From: Nocardioides iriomotensis
GTDB lineage: Bacteria > Actinomycetota > Actinomycetes > Propionibacteriales > Nocardioidaceae
Direction of reading: 5' to 3'
Assembly (NCBI RefSeq): GCF_004168035.1
Contig: NZ_SDPU01000023.1
Coordinates: 62,001 to 126,000, forward strand
DNA: 64,000 nucleotides
Position 1 is the stretch's first letter. Each line of letters opens with the position of its first letter. A program made the translations under genes and the position numbers. Shown one piece after another: positions 11,214 to 18,839 of this stretch. The notes beneath the pieces are model-generated. The model made no database searches. It was not told where the DNA came from and saw nothing but the letters and a program-made list of their open reading frames with translations.

Positions 11214-11918
11214 GTGAGCAGATCCGTACTCGTCACCGGAGGCAACCGCGGCATCGGCCGCGCCATCGCCGTCGCCTTCCTCGCCGCGGGCGACAAGGTC
11301 GCGGTCACCACCCGCAACGGGGAGGCCCCCGAGGGCGCCCTCGGGGTGCGCTGCGACGTCACCGACCCCGACTCCGTCGAGGCGGCGTTCGCGGAGGTCG
11401 AGGAGAAGCACGGGCCTGTCGAGGTGCTCGTCGCCAACGCCGGCATCACCCGCGACACGCTGCTGCTCCGGATGAGCGAGGACGACTGGTCGTCGGTCAT
11501 CGACACCAACCTGACCGGCACGTTCCGGGTGGCCAAGCGCGCGGCCAAGGGCATGCTGCGGCTGCGCCGCGGACGGATCGTGCTGATCTCGTCCGTGGTC
11601 GGCCTGCTCGGCTCGGCCGGCCAAGTCAACTACGCCGCCAGCAAGGCCGGCCTCGTCGGCATGGCCCGGTCGCTCGCCCGCGAGCTCGGCAGCCGCTCGA
11701 TCACCACCAACGTGGTGGCGCCCGGGTTCGTCGAGACCGAGATGACCGCGGTGCTGCCGGAGGAGAAGCAGGCGGAGTACAAGGCGCAGATCCCGCTCGG
11801 CCGGTACGCCGACGTCGACGAGGTCGCCGCGGTGGTGCGCTGGCTCGCCTCCGACGAGGCGGCGTACATCACCGGCGCCGTCATCCCGGTGGACGGCGGC
11901 CTCGGCATGGGTCACTGA
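11214..11918 (+). CDS. fabG: 3-oxoacyl-[acyl-carrier-protein] reductase FabG
   Basis: A 234-residue short-chain dehydrogenase. The NADP-binding glycine motif TGGNRGIG is at residues 8-15, NAG in VLVANAGITRD, and the active site Tyr140-x3-Lys144 in YAASKAG. The PG motif VVAPGFVETEM follows and the chain ends in VDGGLGMGH. The short N-terminus and the position just before an InhA-type FabI match the mycobacterial mabA-inhA arrangement, so the role is NADPH reduction of 3-ketoacyl-ACP in type II fatty-acid synthesis. A 99-bp gap containing a tandem repeat separates it from fabI. Confidence 0.92.
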   Translation: MSRSVLVTGGNRGIGRAIAVAFLAAGDKVAVTTRNGEAPEGALGVRCDVTDPDSVEAAFAEVEEKHGPVEVLVANAGITRDTLLLRMSEDDWSSVIDTNLTGTFRVAKRAAKGMLRLRRGRIVLISSVVGLLGSAGQVNYAASKAGLVGMARSLARELGSRSITTNVVAPGFVETEMTAVLPEEKQAEYKAQIPLGRYADVDEVAAVVRWLASDEAAYITGAVIPVDGGLGMGH

Positions 11919-12017: not shown

Positions 12018-12788
12018 ATGGGCATTCTCGACGGCAAGCGGATCCTGGTCGCCGGCGTCACGATGGACAGCTCGATCGGCTTCGCGGTGGCGCGGGTCGC
12101 GCAGCAGGAGGGCGCCACCGTGCTGGTGTCGAACTTCGGCCGCGCGCTGAGCATCACGAAGCGGATCGTGAACCGCCTGCCCGAGCCGGCGCCGGTGATC
12201 GAGCTCGACGTGACGGACCAGGAGCACCTCGACCGGCTGCCCGACCTGGTCCGCGAGCACGTGGACGGGCTCGACGGCGTGGTGCACTCGGTGGCGTACG
12301 GCAACCCCGAGACGCTGCTCGGCGGCAAGTTCCTCGACGGGCCGTGGGACGACGTCGCCCAGGCCGTCCAGGTGTCGGCCTACTCGCTGAAGTCGCTGTC
12401 GACCGCCTGCCTGCCGCTGATGGGCGGGGGCGGGTCGGTCGTCGGGATGACGTTCGACGCGACCGTGGCGTGGCCGGCCTACGACTGGATGGGCTTCTCG
12501 AAGGCGGCGCTGGAGTCCTGCTCGCGCTACCTCGCCCGCGACCTCGGTCCGAAGGGGATCCGGGTCAACCTGGTCTCCGCCGGGCCGCTCAAGACGCTTG
12601 CCGCCAAGGCGATCCCGGGCTTCGAGGAGCTCGAGTCGATGTGGAGCGACCGCTCGCCGCTGGGTTGGGACGAGAAGGACACCGAGCCGACCGCCCGCGC
12701 CGTGGTCGCGATGCTCTCCGACTGGTTCCCGGCGACGACCGGCGAGATCGTGCACGTCGACGGCGGGTACCACGCGATGGGCGCGTGA
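12018..12788 (+). CDS. fabI: enoyl-[acyl-carrier-protein] reductase (NADH) FabI/InhA type
   Basis: A 256-residue atypical short-chain reductase that performs the last step of fatty-acid elongation, reducing trans-2-enoyl-ACP with NADH. MGILDGKRILVAGVTMDSSI is the FabI/InhA N-terminus, with the divergent glycine motif GVTMDSSIGFAVA. The catalytic pair is Tyr155-x6-Lys162 in WPAYDWMGFSKAAL. VSAGPLKTLAAKAIPGF is the substrate-binding loop of the family. A good ribosome-binding site (GGAGGAG) precedes the ATG. It lies downstream of fabG and follows the mycobacterial mabA-inhA order. Confidence 0.95.
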   Translation: MGILDGKRILVAGVTMDSSIGFAVARVAQQEGATVLVSNFGRALSITKRIVNRLPEPAPVIELDVTDQEHLDRLPDLVREHVDGLDGVVHSVAYGNPETLLGGKFLDGPWDDVAQAVQVSAYSLKSLSTACLPLMGGGGSVVGMTFDATVAWPAYDWMGFSKAALESCSRYLARDLGPKGIRVNLVSAGPLKTLAAKAIPGFEELESMWSDRSPLGWDEKDTEPTARAVVAMLSDWFPATTGEIVHVDGGYHAMGA

Positions 12789-12815: not shown

Positions 12816-14504
12816 GTGACGTCCTCCCTCGTCGAGCTCCGGGTCCTCGAAGGCCCCAACCTGTACTTCCCGCGTGCGGCCATCAAGCTGACGCTTGACC
12901 TCACCGGCCTCATCGAGGCGCCGACCGACCGGGCGCTGCGGTTCGCGTCCCGGATCGGGCTTCCTCGGGCGCGTCCGGGCGAGCCGGGCAGCGGCTTCCG
13001 GCAACGGTTCGCCGCCCGCGCGGTGGGGCGTCTGGTGCGGCACGTCGCGGGCGAGGCCGGCGCCACCCGGCTCGCCGTACGCGTGCGGCCGACGAACGAC
13101 GTGCACCGGATCGTGGTCGCGTACCCGTGGCGCAACCGGACCCGCGCGCAGGCCCTGGGCCGGGCTGTGGCAGCGGTGCTGGACGCGCTGCCGAGCGCGG
13201 ACCTCGACGAGCTGGTGAGCGACGAGGCGGCCCGGGTGCGCGCCGCGGAGAAGGGCCCCGGCCCCACCACCATCAAGCCGAAGATCCCGATCGTCGCGGT
13301 GACCGGCACCAACGGCAAGACCACGACCTCCCGCATGGTGGCGCACATCGCGCGCACGCACGGGATGCACGTCGGGTGGTCCAGCACCGACGGCATCTAC
13401 ATCGACGGCGAGCTGGTGGAGCCGGGCGACTACTCCGGTCCGAGCGGCGCGGGCCGGGTGCTCGCGCACAAGGAGGTGCAGCTGGCGGTCACCGAGACCG
13501 CCCGCGGCGGGATCCTGCTCAAGGGCATCGGGCTGGCCTTCAACCACGTCTCGGTCTTCACCAACGTCTCCGCCGACCACCTCGGCCTGCACGGGATCGA
13601 CACCGTCGACCAGCTGGCCGAGGTCAAGAGCGTCGTCTGCCGGATCACCCGACCGGACGGCTGGGTGGTGCTCAACGCCGACGACCCGCGCGTGCTGGCG
13701 ACCCGCACCAACATCCGCGCGCGTCCCTGGGTGTTCTCCCGCGACCCGGACTCACCGGCGCTGCGCGAGGTGCTCTCCGAAGGCGGCCGGGCGACGACGG
13801 TGATCGACGGCTGGGTGTGCGTCATGGAGGCCAACAACGACCCCGACCCGCTCGTCGAGGTCGTGGACGTCCCGATGACGCTGGCAGGGCTGTCGCGGTT
13901 CAACGTCGAGAACGCGCTGGGCGCTGCCTCGGCCGCGCTCGGCGTCGGGCTGCCCCGTCAGGCCGTGGTCGACGGGCTGACGTCGTTCCGGCCCGACCCC
14001 GAGCACAACCCCGGGCGGATGAACTTCTTCACCCACGACGACATCAGCGTCGTCATCGACCTCGCCCACAACGAGGCCGGCCTCGAGGCGCTGCTCGAGA
14101 TCATGAACGGGGTACGGCGACCCGGGGCACGTCTGCTGCTCGGGCTCGGCGCCGTGGGCGACCGGCAGGACGAGATCGTCGGCAGCCTCGGCGAGATGGG
14201 CGCGCGGGACGCCGACGTCGCGGTGATCGCGCACAAGGCGGGCTACCTCCGTGGCCGCACCACCGACGAGCTCGACGTGCTGTTCCGGCAGGGCGCGGCA
14301 AGGGTGGGCGTCGACGACCTCCCGTCGTACCCGACCGAGGTCGCCGGCCTCGCGGCTCTCGTCGACCAGGCGAAGCCCGGTGACGTCGTCGGGCTGATGT
14401 GCCACGAGGACCGGCAGGGCGTGTACGACTGGCTGGCCGACAACGGCTTCAGCACGGACACCCCCGAGACGCTGCGCGACAAGGTGCGGGCCGCGCGCGC
14501 CTGA
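12816..14504 (+). CDS. CphA-like Mur ligase without an ATP-grasp domain
   Basis: A 562-residue protein. Residues 1 to about 140 match the N-terminal domain of the cyanophycin synthetase encoded opposite: LRVLEGPNLYFPRAAIKLTL here against ETRVYRGANVWSYDKAIHLV there. It then goes straight to a Mur-ligase module with GTNGKTTT at residues 163-170, TETARGGILLKG, NVSADHLGLHGIDT, VLNADDPRV and IDLAHNEAGLEAL. The ATP-grasp module that lies between these parts in CphA is missing. A Mur ligase forms an amide bond using ATP through an acyl phosphate; in CphA this module adds arginine to the polymer side chain. The substrate here is unknown. MurT is excluded by the N-terminal domain and lack of a GatD partner. 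It faces cphA with a 13-bp gap between stops. Confidence 0.85.
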   Translation: MTSSLVELRVLEGPNLYFPRAAIKLTLDLTGLIEAPTDRALRFASRIGLPRARPGEPGSGFRQRFAARAVGRLVRHVAGEAGATRLAVRVRPTNDVHRIVVAYPWRNRTRAQALGRAVAAVLDALPSADLDELVSDEAARVRAAEKGPGPTTIKPKIPIVAVTGTNGKTTTSRMVAHIARTHGMHVGWSSTDGIYIDGELVEPGDYSGPSGAGRVLAHKEVQLAVTETARGGILLKGIGLAFNHVSVFTNVSADHLGLHGIDTVDQLAEVKSVVCRITRPDGWVVLNADDPRVLATRTNIRARPWVFSRDPDSPALREVLSEGGRATTVIDGWVCVMEANNDPDPLVEVVDVPMTLAGLSRFNVENALGAASAALGVGLPRQAVVDGLTSFRPDPEHNPGRMNFFTHDDISVVIDLAHNEAGLEALLEIMNGVRRPGARLLLGLGAVGDRQDEIVGSLGEMGARDADVAVIAHKAGYLRGRTTDELDVLFRQGAARVGVDDLPSYPTEVAGLAALVDQAKPGDVVGLMCHEDRQGVYDWLADNGFSTDTPETLRDKVRAARA

Positions 14505-14517
14505 TCCGGGGTGCTGG

Positions 14518-17298
14518 TCAGCCGGCCGGCGTGAAGTCCGGGTCGCCGACCGGGTCGTCGGGGGTCCCGGAGCCGGCCTGGGCCTGGTTGGACCAGTTCT
14601 CCAGCTCGGCCATCACGAGCGGGTGCTTGTCGACGCACACGACCACGAGATCGCCGGCGTTGGCGCGTGACATGGCGTGCCGGACCGCCTCGATCTCCTC
14701 GAGGATGACCTCCACCTGCTTGCAGCGCGCCCCGGCGGCCATGCTCGCCCGGACCCCCTCGGCGACCAGGTCGGCGGTGGCGCCGCGCTCCCGCCCGCGG
14801 AGCGCGACGTCCTCGCGGACGACGACGACGTCGAAGTGCTGGGCCGCGATCGCGCCGAGCTCGCGCATGTCGTCGTCGCGCCGGTCGCCCGCGGTGGCGA
14901 TGACGCCGATGCGCGACGGCTTGCCGAGCTCGCTGGTCGTGGCCAGGCCGTCGCCGACGCGGTCCACGAAGTCGCCCAGCATCCGCATGCCGGGTGCGTT
15001 GTGGCAGTAGTCGACTATGACGTGGCGGCCGTTGACCTCGACCTCGTTGAGCCGGCCGGGCGACAGGTAGTAGTTGGTCGAGAACGTCCGCAGCCCCTGC
15101 CGGATGTCGTGCAGCGGGGCGCCGGCGGCGAAGGCCGCGGCGGCCGCGGCGAGGGCGTTCTGGACGTTCATCCGGGCCCGGCCGTTGAAGGTGGCCGGCA
15201 GGAGGTGGGTCCAGGCGAGCTGCATGTCGCGCCGGCCGTGCCGGACCACGATCATCTCGCCCCGCTCGCTGGGCTCGAGGACGATCGCCTTGCCGCCGCG
15301 GCGGCAGTGCGCGTCGATCATGTCGCGGACCTCGGTGCCGGGCTCTTCCATCGAGAACCACACGACCTGGCCGGAGCAGCGCCGGCGCATCTCGCGCACC
15401 AGCGGGTCGTCGGCGTTGAGCACGGCGTGCCCGTCGCGGGGCACGGCCTCGACGAGCACGGCCTTGACGTCGGCGAGCTGCTCGACGGTGTCGATGCCGC
15501 GCAGGCCGAGGTGGTCGGGCTGCACGTTGAGGACCACGGCGACGTCGTTGCGCTCGTAGCCGAGGCCCTCGCGCAGGATGCCGCCGCGGGCGACCTCGAA
15601 GACGGCGAAGTCGACGCGGGGGTTCTGCAGCACCATCCGCGCGGACTTGGGGCCCGAGGCGTCGGCCCGGATGACCAGCCGCTCGTCGATGACGACGCCG
15701 TCGGTCGAGGTCATGCCGACCTTGCGGCCGAGGCCCTTGAAGATGTGGCTGATCATCCGCGACGTCGTCGTCTTGCCGTTGGTGCCGGTGACGGCGACGA
15801 TCGGGATCCGGCTCGGCGCGCCGGGCGGGAAGAGCATGTCGACGACCGGCTTGGAGATGAACTGCGGGTCGCCGATCGTCGGGTGGGTGTGCATCCGGAA
15901 GCCAGGGGCGGCGTTGACCTCGCAGATCGCGCCGCCGGTCTCGCGGACGGGCTCGGTGATGTCGGGGCAGATGAAGTCGATGCCGGCGATGTCGAGGCCG
16001 ACCATGCGGGCGGCCTCCTCGGCGATCTCGACGTTCTCGGGGTGCGCCTCGAAGGTGCGGTCGATCGAGATGCCGCCGGTCGACATGTTGCCGGTCAGGG
16101 TCAGCTTGACCATCTCGCCGGCGGGCGGGACGTCCTCCAGCCCGTAGCCCTGTTCCTTGAGGAGGGCAAGCGCAGCGTCGTCGACCTTGATCCGGGTCAG
16201 CACCTTCTCGTGGCCGACGCCGCGCCGCGGGTCGGCGTTGGTCTCCTCGACGAGCTGCTCGATCGTGGTCTGCCCGTCGCCGATGACGTGCGCCGGCACG
16301 CGCTCGGCCACGGCCGCGAGCCGGCCGTCGATGATCAGGCAGCGGTAGTCGCGGCCGGTGATGTAGGACTCGACGATCACCCAGCCGCGCCGCGACTGCT
16401 CCTTGGCGATCGGGAACGCCGCGCGCACGTCGTCCTCGTTCTGCAGGTCGAGGCAGACGCCGCGGCCGTGGTTTCCGTCGAGCGGCTTGACGACGACGGG
16501 GTAGCCGATCCGGTTGGCGACGGTGACCGCCTGGTCCGCCGTGCGGATGGACTCCTGCTTGGGCACCGGCAGGCCGGCCGCGCCCAGGAGGCGGGTGGTG
16601 AGGTCCTTGTCGGAGGCGACGTCGACGGCGATCGCGCTGGTGGCCGAGGTCATGGTGGCGCGGATGCGCTTCTGGTGGACGCCCTGGCCGAGCTGCACGA
16701 GGGAGTACTGGTTGAGCCGGATCCAGGGGATGTCGCGGGAGACCGCCTCGTCGAGGATCGCCTGGGTGGACGGGCCGAAGGCGGTGCGCTCGGCGCGCAG
16801 GATGAAGGCCTCGAGCTCCTTCTCCCAGTCGAACTCCGGATCGGCCTCGACGAGGTGGTTCACCAGCCGGACGGCGAGACGGGCGGCCGCGAGACCGACC
16901 TGCTCGTCGACGTACCCGTAGACGATGTTGTAGTGCCCCCGCTTGCCCTTGACCTGGCGGGTCTTGCCGCGGCGGATGTCGTGGCCGACGACCTGCTGCA
17001 GCGCGAGCGCGCAGTGCTCGGCGACGTGGCCGAGCCAGGTGCCCTCGTTGAGCCGCTCCACGAACCCGCCGCGCCGGCCGCGGGAGCAGGAGTGCTCGCG
17101 CAGCCCGGGCAGCATCTGCAGCAGCTCGTCGGTGAACCCGGGGAGGTTGTTGGTGGGGAAGTCCTCCAGGGACCCGAGGTCGACGACCAGGTGGATCGCC
17201 TTGTCGTAGGACCAGACGTTCGCGCCGCGGTAGACGCGGGTCTCAAGGATCGCGAGGTCGGGGGAGGGGCGGGTGGCCGGACGGGGCTGCTCAGTCAC
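14518..17298 (-). CDS. cphA: cyanophycin synthetase CphA
   Basis: A 926-residue two-ligase enzyme that polymerises Asp and Arg into cyanophycin. The N domain covers about residues 1-160. An ATP-grasp domain follows (about 215-480) with VVKPLDGNHGRGV and ESYITGRDYRCLI, which ligates aspartate. The Mur-ligase domain has GTNGKTTT near residue 504, FEVARGGILREG, NVQPDHLGLRGIDT and VIVDYCHNAPGM. All three domains look complete, so both activities are expected. The GTG start at 17298 has AAGGAG upstream and overlaps the 3' end of cphB by 8 nt, so the two are translationally coupled. Confidence 0.93.
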   Translation of the reverse strand: MTEQPRPATRPSPDLAILETRVYRGANVWSYDKAIHLVVDLGSLEDFPTNNLPGFTDELLQMLPGLREHSCSRGRRGGFVERLNEGTWLGHVAEHCALALQQVVGHDIRRGKTRQVKGKRGHYNIVYGYVDEQVGLAAARLAVRLVNHLVEADPEFDWEKELEAFILRAERTAFGPSTQAILDEAVSRDIPWIRLNQYSLVQLGQGVHQKRIRATMTSATSAIAVDVASDKDLTTRLLGAAGLPVPKQESIRTADQAVTVANRIGYPVVVKPLDGNHGRGVCLDLQNEDDVRAAFPIAKEQSRRGWVIVESYITGRDYRCLIIDGRLAAVAERVPAHVIGDGQTTIEQLVEETNADPRRGVGHEKVLTRIKVDDAALALLKEQGYGLEDVPPAGEMVKLTLTGNMSTGGISIDRTFEAHPENVEIAEEAARMVGLDIAGIDFICPDITEPVRETGGAICEVNAAPGFRMHTHPTIGDPQFISKPVVDMLFPPGAPSRIPIVAVTGTNGKTTTSRMISHIFKGLGRKVGMTSTDGVVIDERLVIRADASGPKSARMVLQNPRVDFAVFEVARGGILREGLGYERNDVAVVLNVQPDHLGLRGIDTVEQLADVKAVLVEAVPRDGHAVLNADDPLVREMRRRCSGQVVWFSMEEPGTEVRDMIDAHCRRGGKAIVLEPSERGEMIVVRHGRRDMQLAWTHLLPATFNGRARMNVQNALAAAAAAFAAGAPLHDIRQGLRTFSTNYYLSPGRLNEVEVNGRHVIVDYCHNAPGMRMLGDFVDRVGDGLATTSELGKPSRIGVIATAGDRRDDDMRELGAIAAQHFDVVVVREDVALRGRERGATADLVAEGVRASMAAGARCKQVEVILEEIEAVRHAMSRANAGDLVVVCVDKHPLVMAELENWSNQAQAGSGTPDDPVGDPDFTPAG

Positions 17299-18298
17299 TC
17301 GGGAGGTCTCCTTCGGAATGCTGTCGGGCGCGGCGGCGTCGGAGCACCGTCGGCGACACGTCATCGGCGGCGATGTCCCGAGCCAATCGCTTCAGGTCGC
17401 GTCCCGCAACCGCGAGCTCCTCGGCCTCGCCGGGATCGACGACCGGGGCCTGGCGGACCAGCGCCTTGTCGGTGAGGTCGAACGCCGAGCCGGCGGGGAG
17501 CACGTGCAGGACCACGCCGGACGCGAGGAGGGGAGCGGTACGGCGGGCCTCGTGCGCGTTGGACACGATGGCGCGGCCGTCGAAGATCGTCACGACGCCC
17601 CGGCCGAGCACGCGCAGCCGGGTGTGGCCGTCGTCGTCATCGGTGATCAGCGCGCCGGTGTCCTCGTCGACGCCGATGCCGAGCAGGTGCGGGCTCTGCG
17701 CGACCAGCATGAGCAGCCGGCCGTAGCGGTTGCGCTGGCCGAAGTGCTGGTCGATGACGACGTCGCGGATCAGGCCGAGGCCGCCGGCGAGCTGGGTCAT
17801 CCGCTGCTTGGGGGTGGCGCCGCCGGTGCCGAACGCGACCATGTGCGAGGACTGGATGCTGGCGCCCGCGCTCGTGCCGCCGACGACGACGCCGCGCTCA
17901 TGGGCGGCCTTGATCTCCTCGCCGAAAGCGGTGCCGTTCACGATCGCGGACAGCTTGAGCTGGTTGCCGCCCGTCATGAAGATGCCGGTCGCGTCGGCGA
18001 GCCGCCCGACCACCTCCGGGTCCTCGGCCTGCTCCCGCGACTCGGGGCGCACGCCCCACACGTCGGCCGCGCCGATCTTGCGGAAGAGGGCGTCGTACAC
18101 GTCGACGATCTCGTCACCGAGCGAGGACGCGGTCGGGATCACGGCGATCCGGGCGTCGGGTCCGCCGGCGAGCCGGACGAACTCACTGAGCACGGACCGC
18201 TTGCCCAGCTTGTCCTCGGCTCCGCCGATCGCGAGGAGCGGACCCCGCCCCGGCGCCGGTGGTGTGGTCGACTGGGTCGGTTCTGGCCCGTTCGGCAT
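17291..18298 (-). CDS. cphB: cyanophycinase CphB
   Basis: A 335-residue S51-type serine peptidase that cuts cyanophycin to beta-Asp-Arg dipeptides. GPLLAIGGAEDKLG opens the domain, FMTGGNQLKL is the conserved Q motif, and GGTSAGASIQS holds the nucleophile Ser near residue 142. IDQHFGQRNRYGRL and LGIGVDEDTGALI are also typical. It is the first gene of a cphB-cphA operon. The start at 18298 is supported by a TAGGCT -10 box 7 nt upstream; a longer in-frame start would overlap the divergent SixA gene. Confidence 0.93.
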   Translation of the reverse strand: MPNGPEPTQSTTPPAPGRGPLLAIGGAEDKLGKRSVLSEFVRLAGGPDARIAVIPTASSLGDEIVDVYDALFRKIGAADVWGVRPESREQAEDPEVVGRLADATGIFMTGGNQLKLSAIVNGTAFGEEIKAAHERGVVVGGTSAGASIQSSHMVAFGTGGATPKQRMTQLAGGLGLIRDVVIDQHFGQRNRYGRLLMLVAQSPHLLGIGVDEDTGALITDDDDGHTRLRVLGRGVVTIFDGRAIVSNAHEARRTAPLLASGVVLHVLPAGSAFDLTDKALVRQAPVVDPGEAEELAVAGRDLKRLARDIAADDVSPTVLRRRRARQHSEGDLPSD

Positions 18299-18305
18299 GC
18301 ACGGC

Positions 18306-18311
18306 AGCCTA
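18306..18311 (-). promoter_or_regulatory. -10 box (TAGGCT, minus strand) for cphB-cphA
   Basis: On the minus strand TAGGCT ends 7 nt before the ATG of cphB at 18298, as expected for a leaderless mRNA. The gap to the divergent SixA gene is only 34 bp, so the two promoters must overlap. Confidence 0.5.
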
Positions 18312-18332
18312 CGGGGTGGCAGGGTGGGGCCC

Positions 18333-18839
18333 GTGGGTGGTGGCCGGCGACTCATTGTGATGAGGCATGCGAAGGCGGAGCCTTTCGCGTCGACAGACCA
18401 TGCCCGCGTGCTGACCGATCGTGGTCACGCCGACGCCGCCGAGGCGGGTCGCTGGCTGGCCGGACTGGGCGCGCTGCCCACCCATGTCCTGGTCTCGACG
18501 GCCGCCCGCACCCGCGAGACCTGGGCCGCCGTCGCGGAGTCCGCAGGAGCCAAGGCCGAGGTGTCGTTCGACGAGGCGCTGTACCACGGCGGCGTCGACG
18601 CGGCGGTCGAGGCGATCCAGGTGGTCGACCCCGAGGCGGAGACGGTGATGTTCATCGGGCACAACCCCACGGCGGCGTACCTCAGCCACTTTCTCGACGA
18701 CGGCGACGGCGACGAGGAGGCGATCAGCGGGATGCTGCGCGGCTTCCCGGCCTGCGCCGTCGTGGTGTTCGAGCTGACCGGCAGCTGGGCGGACGTCCGC
18801 CCGGAGGCGGGGCGGGTCGTCGCCTTCCACGCCCCCTGA
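18333..18839 (+). CDS. sixA: SixA-type phosphohistidine phosphatase (histidine phosphatase family)
   Basis: A 168-residue member of the histidine phosphatase superfamily. The catalytic RH motif is in LIVMRHAKAEP near the N-terminus, with VSTAARTRETW and MFIGHNPTAAYLSHFL carrying the second arginine and histidine. Length and the RHAKAE pattern match SixA proteins, which dephosphorylate phosphohistidine, although the substrate here is not known. The GTG start lies 34 bp from the divergent cphB start; the frame continues open upstream, but that region belongs to cphB on the other strand. Confidence 0.88.
   Translation: MGGGRRLIVMRHAKAEPFASTDHARVLTDRGHADAAEAGRWLAGLGALPTHVLVSTAARTRETWAAVAESAGAKAEVSFDEALYHGGVDAAVEAIQVVDPEAETVMFIGHNPTAAYLSHFLDDGDGDEEAISGMLRGFPACAVVVFELTGSWADVRPEAGRVVAFHAP

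Follow-up and report, generated by a model that had tools for sequence, protein, structure and literature searches.

An ATP-grasp-less CphA-related ligase encoded tail-to-tail with cyanophycin synthetase in Nocardioides iriomotensis

The cyanophycin locus and its second ligase

Within a 64,000-nucleotide stretch of the Nocardioides iriomotensis genome (the window, whose coordinates are used throughout), we examined a cyanophycin locus in which the gene for a CphA-related ligase faces cphA. The cyanophycin synthetase gene cphA (14518–17298, minus strand) encodes a CphA1 that scores 1183 bits against TIGR02068 and carries in its N domain the sequence HVAEH (17017–17031, minus strand), part of the Cx19HxxEH motif of the primer-making metallopeptidase (motif as defined in PMC9262961). 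It is accompanied by the cyanophycinase gene cphB (17291–18355, minus strand), with 239 bits against TIGR02069 at a cut-off of 127. An earlier note on this DNA had the two genes overlapping by 8 nt. The overlap has this length when cphA is taken to begin with the GTG at 17298, which has GGAG closely upstream; the longest open reading frame begins at an ATG at 17364. Convergent with cphA, and with 13 nt between the two stop codons, lies an open reading frame of 562 residues (12816–14504, plus strand; GTG start, TGA stop), as the note had described. Its product, which we call the N–Mur ligase, was identified as an ATP-grasp-less relative of CphA from the reading frame itself, Pfam, TIGR02068, an AlphaFold2 model and a fold search. 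Its upstream neighbours are a fabG-like short-chain reductase gene (11214–11918, plus strand) and a fabI/InhA-type enoyl-ACP reductase gene (12018–12788, plus strand), the latter 27 nt before the ligase gene; the three form a set conserved in most relatives within the order, and no cyanophycin genes besides cphA and cphB were found in the conserved neighbourhood. In large genomes of the same order (L039–L046), additional genes separate the ligase from cphA: genes for a Dyp-type peroxidase and a PCuAC copper chaperone follow cphA, and an unannotated gene of 293 aa follows the ligase.

The N–Mur ligase consists of an N-terminal domain (residues 1–150; 12816–13265, plus strand), a Mur core (residues 155–395; 13278–14000) with the P-loop GTNGKTT at 13305–13325, and a Mur lid (residues 396–562; 14001–14501). 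Pfam assigns Mur_ligase_M to residues 162–373 and Mur_ligase_C to residues 400–527, which together with the P-loop place the protein in the Mur ligase superfamily, and finds no ATP-grasp family anywhere in the 562 residues; the complete Mur ligase without ATP-grasp reported from the sequence thus holds in both the Pfam domains and the model. The cphA product, by comparison, matches PF18921 (the N domain), several ATP-grasp families and both Mur domains. Against TIGR02068, the N–Mur ligase reaches 380.6 bits, nearly all of them in its Mur half, compared with 1183 bits for the cphA product and a criterion of more than 850 bits.

The kinship of the N-terminal domain with that of CphA, also claimed in the earlier note, was established by profile–profile comparison and structure, while Pfam did not recognise the domain and phmmer gave only 4 bits against CphA1. 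Aligning profiles of 42 N domains of the ligase family and 73 of CphA with hhalign, we obtained a probability of 95 and a score of 53.2 over 148 columns, whereas 30 column-shuffled profiles reached at most 15.2 and a reversed profile 13.5. The AlphaFold2 model, built from 8 sequences, has a pLDDT of 88.3 and a pTM of 0.86 (folding the N domain by itself from a single sequence gave a poor model, with a pLDDT of 49, that was left out of the results). Its best Foldseek matches are CphA1 chains, and VIA-align superposes 519 of the 562 residues on TeCphA1 (7wae_A) at Z 51.9 and an rmsd of 3.9 Å. This alignment spans model residues 3–544 and chain residues 1–877, so that N and Mur domains fit in one superposition, and the CphA-type N domain packs on the Mur domain in the model. 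The N–Mur ligase hence looks like a CphA1 minus its ATP-grasp part, with the packing of N on Mur preserved in the predicted structure.

Compared with CphA1 (PDB 7lg5, 7wae; TIGR02068), the protein shares the N domain, Mur core and lid in the same mutual arrangement, as well as the catalytic residues and the ARGG, GDxSGP, HN and RGR motifs, but lacks the ATP-grasp (G) domain, which adds Asp in CphA1, and the HxxEH protease motif. This motif was absent from all 42 relatives of the ligase inspected, while the full Cx19HxxEH motif occurs in 28 of 28 actinobacterial CphA from the same sequence set. The cyanobacterial CphA2 is likewise a CphA relative in which one ligase site is inactive or absent and the protease motif is missing (PMC9262961), but in CphA2 the ATP-grasp domain is present and the M domain has neither P-loop nor lid (PMC9427784). 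The N–Mur ligase keeps P-loop and lid, and is indeed the reverse variant that the first reading had proposed.

With MurE and the other peptidoglycan Mur ligases, the protein has in common the fold of Mur core and lid, the P-loop, the DH pair, the lysine and the GDR motif. It differs from them in its CphA-like N-terminal domain and in having ARGG for SSH, HN for HT and RGR for DNPR, and VIA-align scores for MurE and MurC are at about Z 32, against 52 for CphA1. Scored against NCBIfam models for the peptidoglycan ligases MurC, MurD, MurE and MurF, the protein stayed under the cut-offs, the best MurE-type model giving 106.8 bits against 373, and the staphylococcal MurT model gave 46 bits against 800; no gatD-like gene is found among the annotated neighbours. 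On these scores, well under the family cut-offs, we rejected a standard peptidoglycan ligase or MurT, either of which would have overturned the original interpretation.

Two features of the family vary between its lineages. The N domain is, by charge counts, Arg-rich in the lineage of the Nocardioides protein and strongly acidic in Acidobacteriota-type relatives; since the Arg-richness is not family-wide, N-domain charge points to no single substrate, and we dropped a basic N domain as proof of an acidic polymer substrate. Intrasporangiaceae-type relatives (L054, L055, L133, L135) carry about 160 additional C-terminal residues, within which Pfam finds a TPR_5 domain in all three tested (L054, L055, L133), which suggests a partner-bound enzyme or protein contacts.

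Distribution and descent

We found the N–Mur ligase gene to be tightly linked to cphA and cphB, as the earlier note had supposed, by both co-occurrence and neighbourhood. In a survey of 58 relatives, 23 carry the gene and the same 23 carry cphA, always convergently, and among 396 genomes drawn across Actinomycetota the ligase gene and CphA occur in the same 24 (one of them 67% complete, with cphA only as a fragment at a contig edge); these counts come from related genomes, yet within families the two genes come and go jointly. Co-occurrence rules out a chance neighbourhood. The ligase gene is absent from Actinoplanes solisilvae and Actinomadura montaniterrae despite the presence of cphA, which there encodes a different, Bacillota-like CphA, and from the Lyngbya, Chitinophagaceae and Syntrophomonadaceae genomes checked. 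In two single-contig genomes of the same genus (L034 at ~7290, L047 at ~10770), the ligase gene is frameshifted beside G-runs and cphA is intact; the frameshifts are probably assembly errors in these runs, with decay of the gene as the alternative.

Beyond Actinomycetota, 23 of 201 Chloroflexota genomes have CphA-type matches, and about 20 of these 23 carry a relative of the ligase: about 15 as a convergent pair and five more as a 542-aa relative at another locus, the gene of the Herpetosiphon type not adjoining cphA. Altogether, relatives convergent or co-directional with cphA occur in Actinomycetota, Chloroflexota, Acidobacteriota, Gemmatimonadota, Myxococcota, Lysobacter and Ruegeria. A second type follows cphB–cphA in the same direction in two Acidobacteriota (in one of which cphB lies some kilobases off on the opposite strand), Lysobacter sp. 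Root916, Plesiocystis pacifica and a Ruegeria plasmid, and a gene of this type follows cphA in a Gemmatimonadales genome.

The earlier note treated the protein as a cphA copy that had lost a module, and this part of its account did not survive the phylogeny. In a tree of 64 Mur domains, a branch with support 100/98 separates all CphA, together with a Deinococcus variant, from three groups of N–Mur ligases; the root being the midpoint, the status of the three groups as a single clade depends on that rooting. An earlier tree with MurE-type outgroups divided the domains in this way too, though less strongly supported (86 and 85), and the CphA of hosts bearing each type of ligase also cluster together. 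A recent truncation of the neighbouring cphA is ruled out by the Mur trees. Because its Mur domain falls outside all sampled CphA Mur domains and the host CphA group correspondingly, the N–Mur ligase is, on this sequence evidence, an old lineage present in several phyla that travelled with CphA rather than a fresh module loss, which sets it apart from CphA1 along with its score far under the TIGR02068 cut-off and its altered lid and acceptor-side residues. The Acidobacteriota type retains the stretch SVGMGQGSRTW, resembling the start of the G domain, a possible remnant that hints at loss of ATP-grasp in the ancestry of the ligase.

Reduced forms of CphA also occur elsewhere. The Deinococcus plasmid protein WP_012695043.1, annotated 'Mur ligase family protein', resembles the N–Mur ligase in having N and Mur domains with most of the ATP-grasp region gone, but it lies inside the CphA Mur clade and retains the GDRRDxD motif of CphA, and so represents an independent loss. 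Deinococcus plasmids carry CphA relatives with reduced or damaged ATP-grasp regions at L236 5014–7188 and L235 3675–6174, the L236 relative falling inside the CphA clade with its G domain mostly lost independently, and in Deinococcus strain KNUC1210 a split form of the gene comes after cphA, an isoaspartyl peptidase gene and a cyanophycinase gene. In Duganella sp. (L098 10223–12325, minus strand), a CphA-like protein whose G domain has shrunk is encoded tail-to-tail with a divergent cphA. Two CphA genes in tandem occur at betaproteobacterial and some other loci (L084, L086–L093, L101, L102, L104, L105 and others), where the first encodes ~725–760 aa, apparently without most of the M lid.

Active site and proposed function

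The catalytic residues of the Mur domain are kept throughout the family members compared. Across 58 sequences, K168, T169, E227, D254, H255, K271, N366, R401, D415, H418 and N419 are invariant, that is, the residues for ATP, Mg and acyl-phosphate and the Mur-ligase lysine. Mutation of the equivalent residues inactivates the M site of CphA1, as described for D585/H586 (PMC9262961) and likewise for Lys499 (PMC9427784). An apparently missing P-loop in three Chloroflexota copies was a search artefact, GTNGKS being present. The CphA-specific motifs ARGG, GDxSGP, DxxHN and RGR, which differ from those of MurE, are invariant or nearly so in the family, as is GDR. The RGR motif lies in the lid (residues 479–481; 14250–14258, plus strand), with the family mark Y477–L478 just before it in the alignment.

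Losses relative to CphA are commoner in the lid than in the core: of the columns in which 96 CphA Mur domains agree to at least 90%, the family lost 9 of 30 in the lid versus 7 of 83 in the core (p 0.011). The CphA residues R829, D832, F844, D852 and D/E912, conserved at 94–97% in the 96 CphA, are retained in 0–16% of 61 relatives, and the Nocardioides lid has lost all five while keeping GDR and RGR. The family has instead gained Y206, R/K236, Y477 and R533 at 95–100%; its fixed residues in the lid are Y477 and R533 (R533 codon 14412–14414, plus strand; near-invariant, and absent at the equivalent CphA position), those of the core Y206, G211 and R/K236. In MurE, sites at the KGHE glutamate and the DNPR motif hold the side chain and the carboxylate of the incoming amino acid. 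In our alignment, D912 of CphA lies at or next to the KGHE glutamate and D852 beside the DNPR motif; the C-terminal alignment near R533 can slip by one position, and most members, though not all, then have a D or E where CphA has its acid. By analogy with DNPR, the RGR motif is predicted to bind the α-carboxylate of the incoming amino acid. With the acidic lid residues of CphA gone and Y477, R533 and R/K236 fixed instead, we infer, from the alignment and the homology to MurE, that the ligase uses a donor other than arginine and acts on more anionic substrates than the CphA Mur domain does.

We tentatively propose that the N–Mur ligase modifies or caps cyanophycin with an amino acid other than arginine, a possibility that we rate somewhat short of probable. 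Its activity, acceptor, donor class, and capping or decorating role are what we infer in the following scheme. The protein would be an ATP-dependent amino-acid ligase dedicated to cyanophycin metabolism, whose Mur core and lid would activate an aspartyl carboxylate by phosphorylation. The likeliest target is the free carboxyl on the side chain of a terminal or unmodified Asp, in a cyanophycin-type chain that would lie between the N and Mur domains as it does in CphA1. The incoming amino acid, by prediction one other than arginine and more probably neutral or acidic, would be clamped by its α-carboxylate on RGR, and its amino group would attack the activated carboxylate. Acting after or beside CphA1, the enzyme may cap the growing end or give some Asp residues another side chain. 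As it lacks ATP-grasp, it could not extend the Asp backbone by the CphA route, and as its N domain lacks the protease motif, it should not make primers.

Alternatively, the ligase may repeat the Mur reaction of CphA1, adding Arg to bare side chains or to a terminal Asp as a finishing or repair enzyme. The shared N–Mur architecture, the retention of all catalytic and CphA-specific core residues and the strict linkage to cphA would suit such a role, but the lost CphA lid residues and the near-invariant R533 in the lid make a poor fit for an arginine side chain, and we regard it as unlikely. Finishing poly-Asp with arginine is the least supported of the three functions guessed at in the earlier note, because the ligase does not keep the acidic residues that CphA conserves in its lid, two of them at or next to the positions that hold the amino acid in MurE; the other two guesses, adding another amino acid or making another peptide, appear to fit the residue pattern better.

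It is more doubtful still that the product of the ligase is a small peptide or dipeptide, for example a β-aspartyl dipeptide or a religated β-Asp-Arg released by CphB, and that it would serve to feed, prime or salvage cyanophycin instead of modifying the polymer. The gene is linked to cphB as well as to cphA, a second carboxylate on the donor would partner R533 and K236, and CphA2 shows that a relative of CphA can serve in dipeptide salvage (PMC10206079); CphA2, however, acts via the ATP-grasp domain that is absent here, and with Cx19HxxEH in every actinobacterial CphA examined, primers should need no extra enzyme. Lower again, we place the synthesis of a wholly different peptide by an enzyme unrelated to cyanophycin chemistry and merely co-inherited. 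Residues changed near the acceptor side (Y206, G211, R/K236) as well as the donor side, and the Herpetosiphon-type gene away from cphA, would agree with this, but the joint presence and absence with cphA throughout the Actinomycetota sample and the operon-like position right after cphA in Acidobacteriota, Lysobacter, Myxococcota, Gemmatimonadota and Ruegeria argue against it. Finally, a non-catalytic helper or regulator of CphA1, as the protein contacts suggested by the TPR fusion in Intrasporangiaceae relatives might imply, is very improbable given that the P-loop, Mg, acyl-phosphate and lysine residues are invariant in all members examined.

Meaning for cyanophycin chemistry

Cyanophycin has been studied as a nitrogen store and industrial polymer almost wholly via CphA1 and CphA2. 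We found no description of the N–Mur ligase in papers on cyanophycin clusters and structures (PMC10206079, PMC9262961, PMC9427784), nor any study characterising it in the literature searched, a search that took in neither preprints nor most subscription papers; an annotated plasmid record names a protein of this type 'Mur ligase family protein'. A 2023 sludge study reported a shorter, less expressed second 'cphA' beside cphA and cphB in Tetrasphaera (PMC10687191). As the related Terrabacter carries the N–Mur ligase gene, this shorter copy is probably a gene of the same type, which may thus already have been counted as a second cphA.

A full ligase site kept in the company of cphA across phyla points to a step of cyanophycin metabolism that is missing from current models. 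If the ligase loads another amino acid, current assumptions about what cyanophycin is made of in bacteria of soil and wastewater may be wrong, and nature already offers a tool for making modified cyanophycin. The broadest form of our proposal, which we advance as doubtful, is that a widespread enzyme class, older than the sampled radiation of CphA1, gives cyanophycin a second, non-arginine side chain or a capped end. If true, the cyanophycin of Actinomycetota, Chloroflexota, Acidobacteriota and others would be chemically unlike the cyanobacterial polymer.
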